Shown here: positions 47,002-54,439 of the stretch, piece after piece | Position numbering within the stretch: the stretch's first letter is position 1 | Layout of the letters: each line of letters begins with the position of its first letter | From: Caldilineaceae bacterium SB0664_bin_27 | GTDB lineage: Bacteria > Chloroflexota > Anaerolineae > Caldilineales > Caldilineaceae | Assembly (NCBI GenBank): GCA_009838625.1 | Contig: VXRG01000004.1 | Location: forward strand, 1-64,000 | DNA length: 64,000 nucleotides | Reading direction: 5' to 3' | Position numbers and translations under genes: made by a program | Notes under the pieces: generated by a model | Database searches by the model: none | Told to the model about the DNA's origin: nothing | The model's input: the letters and a program-made list of their open reading frames with translations, nothing else

Positions 47002-47469
47002 TCACGGCTGGGATTCTTCAGTTTCGGTTACTTCGATGCTGACGGCGACATAGCCGTCATTGTCGCTCAGGACGTCGTCATTGATGCGCAAGTAGAGAAT
47101 GCCGTGTTGGGTCGCCTGCATGTTTACGCCTTCGCCGACGACGAAGCGACCGCCGGTTTCGCCGATGCGACCGATGAGCGCGCCGCCGGACCCGCTGGAA
47201 ACAGGATAGAAGCTTGGCGCCGGAAATCTCGGGTGACCCGCGGGCCCGTGGAACTCATCGGGCGTATAGAGCCATTCACCTTCCGCTTCAATCTCGACCC
47301 GGTCTCCCTGATCGACACGAACACCGGTGCTCTGCCAGTCGCGGTAGGCGTAGATTCGTTTAGTGAGCAGCTCGCTGTGGTGGCGGGAAACGGTCAGGAC
47401 CGGCTGTGCGGTCTGCGTCAGGACCACCAGGACAGCGATGCCACCTGCAAGAAGAAGTAGCTTTCGCAT
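47002..47469 (-). CDS. Exported PA-IL/LecA-like domain protein
   Basis: A 155-residue protein with an N-terminal signal peptide or anchor (LLLLAGGIAVLVVL). The rest resembles the PA-IL (LecA) galactophilic lectin fold: VDQGDRVEIEAEGEWLY, then GGALIGRIGETGGRFVVGEG, then LYLRINDDVLSDNDGYVAVS. The Asp-rich IND...NDG loop sits where LecA binds Ca2+ and sugar. Binding is inference. It starts 3 bp after the SPFH gene, so the two are probably cotranslated. Confidence 0.75.
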   Translation of the reverse strand: MRKLLLLAGGIAVLVVLTQTAQPVLTVSRHHSELLTKRIYAYRDWQSTGVRVDQGDRVEIEAEGEWLYTPDEFHGPAGHPRFPAPSFYPVSSGSGGALIGRIGETGGRFVVGEGVNMQATQHGILYLRINDDVLSDNDGYVAVSIEVTETEESQP

Positions 47470-47472
47470 ACG

Positions 47473-49323
47473 TCACTCCTCCGCAGAAGGCCGCAGTTCA
47501 AGGATCGGCTCGGCGCCGGTACCCAGGATCCACTTGCTGTTCTCCTTCAGTTCGACGGCAATGAGGTAGTCGATATACTTTTCTGCGAGCGCGCCTTTGC
47601 CTTCCAGTTCGCTGAGGATGGCGCGGACGGCAAGCTGCTGGGCCTCGGTCGTTAGCTGGATCTGTTCGGCTTCGGCCGCGGCTGTGGTAGAGATGCGATA
47701 GGCGGCGGCTTCGGCCTCCTTCTGAGCGGCGTAGAACTGGGCGTCGGCAACGGTGCGCTGCTGGGCCGCTTCGGCCTCGGCCTGCTCCTGTCGCTGCACG
47801 GCCACCATGCGGTCCTTGATGGCTGACAGCACCTCGGCGGGCGGCGACGCGCTCTGGATCTGGACGGTCATGAATTCGACGCCGTACTGATCTTCCTTCT
47901 CCTTCAACTCCTGCATAATCTCAAGGTTCATCTCCGTACGCTGGTTCATGACGCCGGTCATCGTCTTGGTGTTGATGACATCGCGCAGCCTGCCCTGCAC
48001 GAATTCGAAGACGATGCGCTCCGGGTCGTCGACGGCGAGGGCGAAGCGCTCAGGGTTGGTGACGCGGTAGGTGAACTGCAGTGAGACGTCCATCGTGACA
48101 TTGTCGGAGGTCATGGCGGGTATGCGCTCGACGTAGCCCAGCCGCTCGATGACTTTGACAATTATGACCGTGTCAACTAAGGGGACTTGAACGTGCCATC
48201 CGGGCGTTTGCACGCCGAGGAAGCGGCCGCCGCGCAGGTGCAGGCCGCGTTCGAACTCGTGGATTTTGTAGACCGCGGCGCGGCCGACGTAGAGTGCGAC
48301 CAGAAGAACTGCCAGCGCCCCCAGGACTACGATTGAGAGTTTGTAAAACCGTTCCAAGTCCGCTCCGACAGCTTGCCGTCTTTCGGGCGCGGCAGCCACT
48401 ACTGTCTCTTCGCTCATGTTTGCTTCTCCTTTGGGGGAATCGTGTCCTCCCTTCTCAGATTGCGGCAGGACGGGTAGGTCGCTGATCCTATCTGTAACCC
48501 CGGTCGATGGGGGCAGAGCTCTTGCAACCCCATCTGTAAACGAGGTAAATGCCTTTTCGAATCCAAGAATGCCGATCAACCATTTGACGAGTGGTGGAAG
48601 CAGCAAGGGCCCGCTTAGTATCAGCCAGGCCAGTCCGACAAGCGGGATCAGAACTGTGAACATGCCCATAATTCCCCTCAGATTCTCTACGTAGCCGTAA
48701 CTGAGAAGAAATAACATGTTGGTGAATATCACGCCCCCAAAAAGCAGCGTCGCCCGCGGCCAGCTCTTGTCATTGAAAAGACGCGTTGCAGAGGGAAGCC
48801 GGAACAGCAAAGCGATAACAGCCGCCGCCGCTGCTGACAGAAGCACAAATCTCCAGTTGCTTCCAACTGATTCTCCTTGAACAAGCAGCGCAAGCGGGAT
48901 GATTAGTGCTGCGTGGGGAAAAACCGTGTATACGGCAAGCAGCCGATTGGAACTGTGCCAGCCAGCCCATACCACGTTCACGAAGTAGGGCGAGAATGCA
49001 AAGAGAATGAAAAGGATTTCCAGGACTGCCGCGAACACTCCACTTTGCCATCCCATAACCGAAAGGGCGAATTGGAGGAGAGTTGCGACCGCCGCGTACA
49101 CTGCGAACCCCACCCAGCTGTGGAACCAGTGCGGACGTCCAGCCAGCCAACCCACGAACGCCCCGCCGACGTATATGATGCGCAGAGACCAGATTACTCC
49201 AAGCCTCCACCGTTCAGGGGAAATGGAGTCTGGTATGTTGATTCCCAGCCAAAAGGCTGCGGGTACCAACAGGAACGGTATTGCAATGAGTGCTGCGGTG
49301 TGAAAGCTGAAGGTGCGACTCAT
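47473..49323 (-). CDS. Multi-pass membrane protein joined to an SPFH (band 7) domain
   Basis: A 616-residue ORF. Residues 1-250 contain about eight hydrophobic segments of no family I recognise (FAAVLEILFILFAFSPYFV). Residues 303-616 form a complete HflK/stomatin-like protein: one membrane segment (LSIVVLGALAVLLVALYV), an SPFH domain (GVQTPGWHVQVPLVDTVIIV; DNVTMDVSLQFTYRV) and an Ala/Glu/Gln-rich coiled coil. At the boundary the DNA has AAAGGAG and an in-frame ATG at 48417, a near-ideal start. So this is either a fusion or two proteins made from one frame. The lectin-like gene follows by 3 bp. Confidence 0.85.
   Translation of the reverse strand: MSRTFSFHTAALIAIPFLLVPAAFWLGINIPDSISPERWRLGVIWSLRIIYVGGAFVGWLAGRPHWFHSWVGFAVYAAVATLLQFALSVMGWQSGVFAAVLEILFILFAFSPYFVNVVWAGWHSSNRLLAVYTVFPHAALIIPLALLVQGESVGSNWRFVLLSAAAAAVIALLFRLPSATRLFNDKSWPRATLLFGGVIFTNMLFLLSYGYVENLRGIMGMFTVLIPLVGLAWLILSGPLLLPPLVKWLIGILGFEKAFTSFTDGVARALPPSTGVTDRISDLPVLPQSEKGGHDSPKGEANMSEETVVAAAPERRQAVGADLERFYKLSIVVLGALAVLLVALYVGRAAVYKIHEFERGLHLRGGRFLGVQTPGWHVQVPLVDTVIIVKVIERLGYVERIPAMTSDNVTMDVSLQFTYRVTNPERFALAVDDPERIVFEFVQGRLRDVINTKTMTGVMNQRTEMNLEIMQELKEKEDQYGVEFMTVQIQSASPPAEVLSAIKDRMVAVQRQEQAEAEAAQQRTVADAQFYAAQKEAEAAAYRISTTAAAEAEQIQLTTEAQQLAVRAILSELEGKGALAEKYIDYLIAVELKENSKWILGTGAEPILELRPSAEE
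48405..48432 (-). promoter_or_regulatory. Internal ribosome-binding site and start of the SPFH part
   Basis: Within the 616-residue ORF, AAAGGAG stands 8 nt before an ATG whose product is a normal-sized 314-residue SPFH protein. It lies at the domain boundary, where no strong constraint would otherwise create such a signal. Confidence 0.55.
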
Positions 49324-49659: not shown

Positions 49660-51006
49660 ATGGGAACGCAGCACAGTTTTAGTCGGCGAAGGTTTTTGCA
49701 TGGGGCAGGCTTGGGCGCCGCGGGGTTGGCGCTGGCGGCCTGCGCAGCGCCGGCAGCGGAGCCTGCCGCGGGGGACGCAGAGGCGCCCGCTGCCGAAATG
49801 CCTGAGGTTGTATTTTGGTTTCCATGGGAGGACCCTGCCCTGAACCTTCAGGACAAGTTCAATGAAGCAGGGTTGGGTGTTACAGCGGTCTGGCAACTTG
49901 GCGAATATGATTCGAACACGAAGACGATGGCCGCGCTGGCGGCCGGCACGCCGCCCCCGGTTTCATTCCTGGGCCGGTGGCAGAGCGGCGACTTGGCGGT
50001 GCGCGATGCGCTCGTGATCCTGGACGACTACATTGAGGGCGCCCAAAACTTCACTTGGGATAACATTTGGGAGCGACTGCAGAAGGATTCCATACTCTGG
50101 GGCAAGAAATGGATCGTTCCCTATACGACGGATACGCGCGCTTTGTTGTACAACAGGACTGTCATGGGAGAGGCAGGGCTTGACCCGGATGCGCCGCCAT
50201 TGACGTGGGATGAACTGCACCAGATGGCAATCGATATAACGGAACAGGACGACGCAGGCCGCCTGGATGTGATAGGGTTCACGCCCACATTCGGCAATCC
50301 TCCCGTGCACCTCATGTTTCTGACGTTGATCTGGTGCCTTGATGGCGACATGGTCAACGAGGATTTGACCCAGGTTACGATAACCGACAAGGGTGAAGAG
50401 GCCATGGTCTTCCTGAAACAGTTGATGGACGACCAGGGAGGATACGAGGCGGCAGGCGCCTTCACGAGGGGACTCAGTCTGGCGGAAGGCATCGATGCAT
50501 TTTCGGCAGGAAAGGTGGGTCTGGCGATGCACGGGCAGTGGGTGCTTCGCAACTACGACAAATACTCACCTGATCTCGACTTTGGCATGATACCGGGCCC
50601 GGTTTTCCCGGAGTATGGCATTCACGCCAACTATGACGGTGGCGGCGGCTGGTTCCTTTTCAAGGAGGGCGGACAGCCGGATGATGCCTGGGCCCTGGTC
50701 GACTTCTCGATGAACGAAGAATTCTATCTTGACCACGCAAACAGATTCCACTGGCTGCCGGCGCGCTCCGATGTGGGTGAGCAGTGGGCGGCCTTTGACG
50801 AACGGCGCGAGGTCTTCGCCGCGACGGCAAACACGGTGCGGTGGATTCCGATTTTCGTCGGCATCCTTGAAACACTGGGCGACATCGCCACCATGTTCGA
50901 CAACATTCTGATTGGCGGCAAAGACATTGCCAGCGAACTTGAGATTGCGGAAGAGAAGATTCAGGCTGTACTGGACCGGCACAACGAGTTCCCGGTGCCT
51001 TCCTAG
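49660..51006 (+). CDS. Extracellular solute-binding lipoprotein of second sugar importer
   Basis: A 448-residue family 1 binding protein. The ATG at 49660 has an excellent AAGGAGG about 7 nt upstream, so the longer ORF is rejected. A Tat-like SRRRFLHG precedes a lipobox (ALAAC). The mature part has usual motifs (YTTDTRALLYNRTVMGEAG; AGKVGLAMHGQW). It starts a five-gene run with two permeases, a ceramidase-like hydrolase and an oxidoreductase. The ligand is unknown, perhaps an oligosaccharide or glycolipid sugar. Confidence 0.93.
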   Translation: MGTQHSFSRRRFLHGAGLGAAGLALAACAAPAAEPAAGDAEAPAAEMPEVVFWFPWEDPALNLQDKFNEAGLGVTAVWQLGEYDSNTKTMAALAAGTPPPVSFLGRWQSGDLAVRDALVILDDYIEGAQNFTWDNIWERLQKDSILWGKKWIVPYTTDTRALLYNRTVMGEAGLDPDAPPLTWDELHQMAIDITEQDDAGRLDVIGFTPTFGNPPVHLMFLTLIWCLDGDMVNEDLTQVTITDKGEEAMVFLKQLMDDQGGYEAAGAFTRGLSLAEGIDAFSAGKVGLAMHGQWVLRNYDKYSPDLDFGMIPGPVFPEYGIHANYDGGGGWFLFKEGGQPDDAWALVDFSMNEEFYLDHANRFHWLPARSDVGEQWAAFDERREVFAATANTVRWIPIFVGILETLGDIATMFDNILIGGKDIASELEIAEEKIQAVLDRHNEFPVPS

Positions 51007-53083: not shown

Positions 53084-53140
53084 CGCCGCGTTTGAACGCA
53101 GCCCCACTTTCCCACATTCAGACTCCCAGGAGGCTTGACT

Positions 53141-54439
53141 GTGTCAGACAGCCAACTTCGCATCGGCTTCGGCGAGACCGACATTACGCCGCCGGAGGGT
53201 CTCTTCATGTGCGGGAGCCTCGACCCGCGCAGGAACGAAGGCACGACGGATCCGTTGCAGTCCCACGCGCTCGTCGCGGAAAGCGGCGACAGGCGGATCG
53301 CCATTGTGGGTGTCGACTTGATTGGACTGCCCAAGGCGCGGGCGGATGCAATAATCGCCGAAGCCTCTCGCCGTACAGGCATCCCATCGGAAGCAATACT
53401 GATCTCCTGCAGCCACACGCATAGCGGACCCTATACGGCTGAGGGCGTCTATTCTTCAGACGTGATAGACGCGGACTACCTCTCGACGCTGCCGGACCGC
53501 ATCGCGGCAAGCGTTGAGGACGCGGCTGGACGTTTGGAGCCGGCTTCGATGCACATTGGCCGATCCCTGGTCCACCATGGAATCCACAACCGTCGAGTCA
53601 TCTGCCCGGACGGCAAGGTGATGAACACGTGGATGCCGCAGGCGCTCAACGATCTGGAGTACATCCCCCAAGTGTATGGGACGGCAGGTCCTGTCGACCC
53701 CGAGATGTGGGTCGTCCGTTTTGACAGGCTGGACGGGTCGACACTGGGCGTCTTCTACAACTACTCGCTGCATACCAACTCAAAGGGCGGTACGACCTGG
53801 TCGGCGGACTACCCCTGCGTAGTGGCTGAGCACATGAGGGAAGGGTACGGTCCCGGCGTAATCTCCGTTTATACGCCGGGCGCGTGTGCGGACATCAACG
53901 TGACGCTGGGGGGCGTGCGCTGGCGAGAGGGCGCAACTTACTTTGCGGAGCAGGCGGTGGACGCGGCGCGGCGGGCGATTCCGGTTGAGGGACCCATCGC
54001 TGTCAGCGCGACTCGCCGGGATATCACTGTCCCGCGGCGGAACCCGGCTGACCATTCGGCTGAGGCGATAGAACGACTCAACTGGGGTGGGGCGGGTGGA
54101 CGCGCCGATATCTTTGACCGGCAGGCCGAGCTTGTCGCCGGCTTGCCGGAGCAGTGGGAGGTACCCGTCAACGCGGCACGCATTGGACCTCTTGCGATCG
54201 CGTCCAATCCGGGTGAACTGTTCGTTGAGCACGGGCTCTCGATCAAGCGGCGTTCCCCCTTTCCCTACACGGTGGTGTCTGAGCTAACGAACGACCTGGC
54301 GATGTATCAGCCAACCGAGGCGGCCTTCGAACAGGAGGGATATGAATGCCTGGTTGGGCCCAATCGGATTGCCCTGGAGGGCGTCGAACGCATTGTGGAT
54401 ACTGCTGTGGAGCTGGTGGAAGCTTTGTGGGACGAATAG
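53141..54439 (+). CDS. Neutral/alkaline ceramidase N-terminal domain protein
   Basis: A 432-residue protein related to the N-terminal part of neutral ceramidases, which are zinc amidases. It shows GFGETDITPPEG, the SHTHSGP zinc motif and a later NYSLHTNSKGG. It lacks the C-terminal immunoglobulin-like domain and a signal peptide, so it is probably cytosolic and need not act on ceramide. AGGAGG lies 7 nt before the GTG at 53141; the TTG at 53135 is only 1 nt from it and is rejected. It lies in the second importer run. Confidence 0.9.
   Translation: MSDSQLRIGFGETDITPPEGLFMCGSLDPRRNEGTTDPLQSHALVAESGDRRIAIVGVDLIGLPKARADAIIAEASRRTGIPSEAILISCSHTHSGPYTAEGVYSSDVIDADYLSTLPDRIAASVEDAAGRLEPASMHIGRSLVHHGIHNRRVICPDGKVMNTWMPQALNDLEYIPQVYGTAGPVDPEMWVVRFDRLDGSTLGVFYNYSLHTNSKGGTTWSADYPCVVAEHMREGYGPGVISVYTPGACADINVTLGGVRWREGATYFAEQAVDAARRAIPVEGPIAVSATRRDITVPRRNPADHSAEAIERLNWGGAGGRADIFDRQAELVAGLPEQWEVPVNAARIGPLAIASNPGELFVEHGLSIKRRSPFPYTVVSELTNDLAMYQPTEAAFEQEGYECLVGPNRIALEGVERIVDTAVELVEALWDE

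Follow-up and report, generated by a model that had tools for sequence, protein, structure and literature searches.

HflK and HflC of E. coli form an FtsH-associated SPFH cage. The SPFH domain of HflK/C is reported to lie outside the cytoplasm (PMC12624060). That SPFH genes have genetic partners is known from SPFH-NfeD operons such as QmcA-YbbJ and YuaG-YuaF (SPFH1, SPFH2 and SPFH5 of PMC2636767), and from the flotillin-associated rhodopsin, a multi-helix membrane protein that is genetically tied to an SPFH gene while both remain separate genes (PMC10308929). It is also known that bacteria use internal in-frame starts, which give rise to pairs of N-terminal proteoforms, as described for mrcB, clpB, infB and others (PMC11005335). 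In the literature that we searched, no report was found of an SPFH scaffold with plain and membrane-module-bearing subunits that come from one frame. Herein we describe a gene that may encode such subunits. It lies in a 64,000-nucleotide stretch of DNA (the window) from Caldilineaceae bacterium SB0664_bin_27, a member of an uncultured group of sponge-type Chloroflexota whose named relatives are Caldilineaceae MAGs.

The frame and its two halves

The preliminary description of this locus, which was made from the letters alone, holds with respect to the frame, the lengths, the internal Shine-Dalgarno (SD) sequence with its spacing, and the neighbouring genes (Table 1).

Table 1. Features of the fused SPFH locus; positions are those of the window
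Feature	Position	Strand	Remarks
Fused SPFH frame	47473-49323	minus	616 codons/aa; unrecognised eight-helix membrane half and complete 314-residue SPFH protein
First start codon of the fused frame	49321..49323	minus	ATG without SD
Membrane half, residues 1-302	48418..49323	minus	eight predicted transmembrane helices, then disordered cytosolic linker
Linker, residues about 270-302	48418-48516	minus	disordered (AlphaFold2), predicted cytosolic
Internal SD, AAAGGAG	48426..48432	minus	spacer of 8 nt to the internal ATG
Internal in-frame ATG, putative start of the free SPFH protein	48415..48417	minus	invariant in 19/19 fused homologues
SPFH protein, 314 aa	47473..48417	minus	N-terminal transmembrane helix, Band_7, C-terminal helical region
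SPFH N-terminal transmembrane helix			about residues 329-347 of the 616-aa frame
Band_7 domain	47758-48267	minus	residues 353-522; PF01145, E 8e-32
PA-IL-like protein, 155 aa	47002..47469	minus	N-terminal hydrophobic signal or anchor; start 3 bp past the SPFH stop

The downstream half matches PF01145 with 111 bits against a cut-off of 23.6 and thus belongs to the SPFH/Band_7 superfamily. Its best solved relatives are HflK (2e-21), stomatin (2e-12) and QmcA (3e-11), and HflK, stomatin and prohibitin are found as fold matches, with HflK being closest by sequence and by fold. The score against the NCBIfam model hflK (TIGR01933), however, is 103 bits, which is below the equivalog cut-off of 159.4. 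The same genome contains two further SPFH paralogues (27% identical; G000:C134:4160-4927 and G000:C8:10728-11378), and one of them could be a hetero-partner.

The upstream half had been regarded as an unrecognised multi-pass membrane protein, and indeed eight helices are predicted in residues 1-302, for which there is no Pfam match. The structure prediction that had been suggested as a check gave an ordered model (AlphaFold2, pTM 0.76), in which the eight helices span residues 7-28 to 215-253, and in which residues 270-302 have a pLDDT under 50; the model of the full-length fused protein is weak (pTM 0.45). In 16 homologues, the loop charges alternate strictly and indicate an N-in/C-in orientation, which agrees with the model in predicting eight helices with both ends inside. 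As both ends would be inside, the linker is predicted to be cytosolic, and the next helix would take the SPFH domain outside the cytoplasm. No relative of the membrane half was found in the PDB by sequence, and none of the PDB fold matches was significant (best E 0.33), so that an assignment as known transporter, rhodopsin or receptor finds no support in Pfam, PDB sequence or PDB fold searches. The locus thus adds a membrane-protein family without relative in Pfam or PDB searches.

Free SPFH proteins, detached modules and the PA-IL-like partner

The SPFH subfamily occurs in 38 of the 396 genomes of the class, and about 20 of these, which lie outside the fused group, have it in free form. The free SPFH proteins of other Anaerolineae have their own start near the equivalent residue or Met. 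A stop codon at the boundary, which the preliminary description had proposed to look for in relatives, thus exists, as stop-separated SPFH proteins are encoded at the locus L051 and in about 20 other Anaerolineae. L051 (L051:3481-4893, contig C77) is a second, unfused copy in a genome (G010) that also has the fused gene. It carries a TGA ten codons ahead of the same SD/ATG as found in fused genes, and a PA-IL-like gene follows behind it. In the tree, L051 branches inside the fused clade, and therefore it most simply would have arisen from a fused gene whose membrane half was lost up to a point shortly before this signal.

A further case is the genome G013, where a TAG interrupts the frame of the fused copy within its membrane half and leaves the SPFH part intact; this TAG is known from one assembly. 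In the same region (contig C36, L045:3451-5794), tandem copies of the membrane half precede the SPFH part, namely a remnant shrunken to 118 aa, a free copy of 289 aa and the TAG-bearing fused copy, and the membrane module apparently can duplicate and detach. In a genome of another class (G414, L080:909-3284), a multi-helix gene that belongs to no known family has a stop/start overlap with the SPFH start, and again a PA-IL-like gene follows. No homology of the upstream membrane genes of G414 and of G400 to the membrane half was detected by hhalign, and the three-part arrangement of G414 may have arisen by convergence or may be very distantly related to the one described here. The genes of G414 overlap in the ordinary way, and the fused frame looks like the in-frame counterpart of such an overlap.

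The gene 3 bp behind the SPFH stop, previously called PA-IL-like, encodes a protein that matches PF07828 with an E of 2.2e-4, its 21.7 bits being slightly short of the cut-off of 22.5. Thirteen of 20 relatives match PF07828 at E 0.01, the relative of G414 passes the cut-off with 26.5 bits, and the family profile finds LecA (1e-4) and PllA (0.007). Elsewhere in genomes of the genus, short stretches that correspond only to the C-terminal third of this family are present at G003:C438:1337-1492, G010:C105:7240-7383 and G011:C29:261840-261986. In loci that are long enough to tell, the PA-IL-like gene stands behind the SPFH gene, no matter whether this is fused or free (the contigs of L058 and L049 are not informative or have no PA-IL-like match), and among 100 relatives, the strong matches coincide with the presence of this SPFH subfamily in the same genome. 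As the PA-IL-like gene accompanies free and fused SPFH genes, the pair is, judged from these loci, older than the fusion. This rules out that the lectin-like protein is a special partner of the fusion; as it is retained also where the membrane half is missing, it offers no explanation for the fusion. A literature search for SPFH and lectin in combination found nothing relevant, and as far as the literature was searched, the conserved SPFH/PA-IL-like operon is undescribed.

It had been suggested that the lectin-like protein hints at glycan or lipid recognition. LecA contacts galactose by His50 and Gln53 (PMC9321714), and these residues are not kept at the aligned positions of the PA-IL-like protein, so that sugar binding cannot be assumed. 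In the region of the calcium loop (Asp100, Asn107), the motifs N-D and D-N-x-G can be aligned to the loop of PllA if a gap is allowed. With His50 and Gln53 not conserved and the calcium loop aligned only in part, a glycan ligand is no more than possible. Further along in the window, a protein encoded at 53135-54439 has a neutral-ceramidase N-terminal match (PF04734, 2e-10) and adjoins a sugar-type ABC transporter operon, which may constitute a sphingolipid or glycolipid link.

Conservation of the internal start and of the open joint

Among 319 internal in-frame ATGs of the window genes, a six-base SD at proper spacing precedes only two, the internal ATG of the SPFH frame and the ATG at 49660, which probably is where a solute-binding gene really starts, its ORF having been extended too far upstream. 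For comparison, 19 homologues were available, i.e. those of 17 genus genomes, of G041 (same family) and of G098 (another family), and as the genus genomes are related, these 19 count as fewer independent observations. The pairing energy of the internal SD with the anti-SD ranges from -7.3 to -11.0 kcal/mol in these homologues (mean -8.7), versus means between 0.0 and -4.7 at the remaining conserved internal Met columns. A GGAG or a shifted GAGG is present at the internal start in all 19. The codons used for this vary (AAA GGA GAA, CAA GGA GAA, CTA GGA GAC, TCA GGA GGT, ACA GGA GGT), and in three species, which have AAA AGT GAG GAA at this place, GAGG replaces GGAG with a shift by one codon. 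The glycine at the SD place is encoded by GGA in 16 of 16 cases, in comparison to 20% GGA elsewhere in these genes. The synonymous divergence of codons 293-302 is 0.316, and each of the 280 ten-codon windows in the membrane half has a higher value (mean 0.58); even in L020 and L058, where the linkers align poorly by now, GGAGG is nonetheless kept. A chance SD/ATG is ruled out by the invariance of the Met in 19/19 homologues, by the synonymous minimum and by the rarity of such signals among the 319 ATGs.

The fused frame exists in 17/17 genus genomes and is open in all of them apart from the TAG in the membrane half of G013, and it is also open in G041 and G098, which rules out an assembly or frameshift artefact as well as a fusion that is peculiar to this genome. 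Within the genus, identity to the copy of the window is about 85-96% for the SPFH half, whereas the identity of the membrane half is 41-70%. The synonymous sites of the gene have diverged strongly among the genus genomes (pS about 0.6), and dN/dS is about 0.7 for the linker, whose amino-acid sequence is thus almost unconstrained, 0.36 for the membrane half and 0.04 for SPFH. Despite this drift, there are no in-frame linker stops in the 19 homologues, versus 26 and 31 stops in the other two frames. When neutral evolution was simulated on the tree of the genus, with the divergence set to that seen in the linker, about 12 of the 17 tips were expected to carry a stop, and each of the 2000 runs produced at least one. 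The open linker and the simulation together essentially exclude chance and indicate that the fusion itself is under selection. As internal start and open frame are both kept across the genus, the second start very probably is a working part of the gene, and the fused and the free reading both appear to be under selection. A conserved start codon with its SD thus stands within a conserved open frame, as is characteristic of an internal-start pair. The proposal that one frame yields a fused and a free SPFH protein is strongly supported by this comparison, as open joint and internal signal are kept together; relatives that conserve the joint as one protein but lack the internal signal, which would have spoken against the proposal, were not what we found.

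What other explanations exist for this conservation? One is that the internal start alone matters for SPFH, that the membrane half has a separate function, and that the frame is continuous only because a stop codon happened to be lost. Separate neighbours do work, as seen with the multi-helix gene of G414, and a separate membrane copy exists in G013, but an accidentally open linker would have acquired the stops that the simulation expects, and neither the 396 class genomes nor the 46 family genomes contained a membrane half that was separate from SPFH, except for the tandem copies of G013. We therefore regard this explanation as improbable.

A second explanation starts from the translation signals. 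The first ATG has an anti-SD duplex energy of -2.6 in this genome (mean -0.9 over relatives), whereas for 74% of the larger ORFs of the window a candidate start reaches -5 or better, a figure that is biased upward, as the best of several candidate starts per ORF was taken. A TAnACT-like element about 40 nt ahead of the first ATG appears conserved by eye, with the alignment being uncertain. As the first start has no SD, the free SPFH protein is probably the major product, as far as start-signal strengths can tell; the absent SD may also mean leaderless or other initiation, and the product ratio then is uncertain. This combination of a weak first and a strong internal start, together with the overlapping, coupled genes of G414, would also fit a regulatory role, in which translation across the joint exposes the internal start or is coupled to it, and in which the fusion protein mainly sets the SPFH dose. 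Coupling, however, works without an unbroken frame, and the membrane half is under purifying selection and has an ordered eight-helix fold, which makes a regulatory role unlikely to be the main reason for the fusion. Finally, the full-length fusion might be the only product, with SD and ATG left over from a recent joining of two genes. Free SPFH proteins outside the genus start at the equivalent Met, which gives the signal an ancestral source. We nevertheless regard this explanation as very unlikely, since the signal stays where synonymous sites have far diverged, is rebuilt with other codons or a one-codon shift and persists in L020 and L058, and since L051 and G013 retain SPFH without an intact membrane half.

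A possible two-form SPFH ring and known systems

We consider it likely that one frame with two starts generates a fused and a free SPFH protein of the same topology, which in principle could share an HflK-like ring. Initiation at the SD-less first ATG would result in a protein in which eight membrane helices are followed by a cytosolic disordered linker (about 50 residues), then by a ninth helix and by an extracytoplasmic SPFH domain, whereas initiation at the strong internal SD/ATG would generate just the SPFH protein with its single helix, which probably is the more abundant form. As the topology around the SPFH helix would be the same, both forms could enter one HflK-like ring, and a minority of the ring subunits would then carry a tethered eight-helix module. 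The PA-IL-like protein, encoded in the same operon, would be exported to the same side and is the general partner of this SPFH subfamily. The comparison shows that the frame stays open, that the internal start is retained and that the SPFH and PA-IL-like genes remain together, and from this starting point we infer the relative amounts, the topology, the ring formation and the mixing of both forms in rings. More tentatively, one may envisage that a single gene provides plain and module-bearing subunits of one SPFH ring, that the start ratio sets the number of eight-helix modules under the extracytoplasmic cage, and that the PA-IL-like protein is the conserved partner outside.

As an evolutionary example of a gene nested in frame inside another, with the inner start at a domain border, this locus is comparatively clean: the open joint and the inner start are retained side by side, although the sequence of the linker drifts. 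The locus points to a simple way in which a membrane protein could be tethered to an SPFH scaffold, with its dose set to a minority, and it makes testable which client proteins SPFH cages enclose.

The comparison with known systems illustrates what is shared and what is different. The PA-IL-like protein resembles the calcium-dependent lectins LecA/PA-IL and PllA in its profile match and in shared core motifs, but it has an N-terminal hydrophobic signal or anchor and is tied to SPFH. With the internal-start proteoform pairs, the gene shares the principle of one frame with a first start and a downstream in-frame start, and two products are predicted here; the difference is that the second start lies at the border of two unrelated modules, and that its conservation was measured across a genus and beyond. 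The flotillin-associated rhodopsin is encoded separately, whereas here there is one frame, and the eight-helix module has no significant rhodopsin fold relation (E 0.43, TM 0.19). As in SPFH-NfeD operons, a conserved gene for a membrane or exported partner lies beside SPFH, but this partner is PA-IL-like, the membrane module is joined in frame, and none of the ten neighbouring genes scanned encodes NfeD. HflK/HflC are most similar, with a single N-terminal helix, an SPFH domain outside the cytoplasm, as is predicted here, and a helical region behind it. In contrast to HflK/HflC, the SPFH protein described here scores below the HflK equivalog cut-off and no HflC partner gene adjoins it, one of its forms would carry eight extra helices, and the two forms would come from one gene and not from two paralogues.
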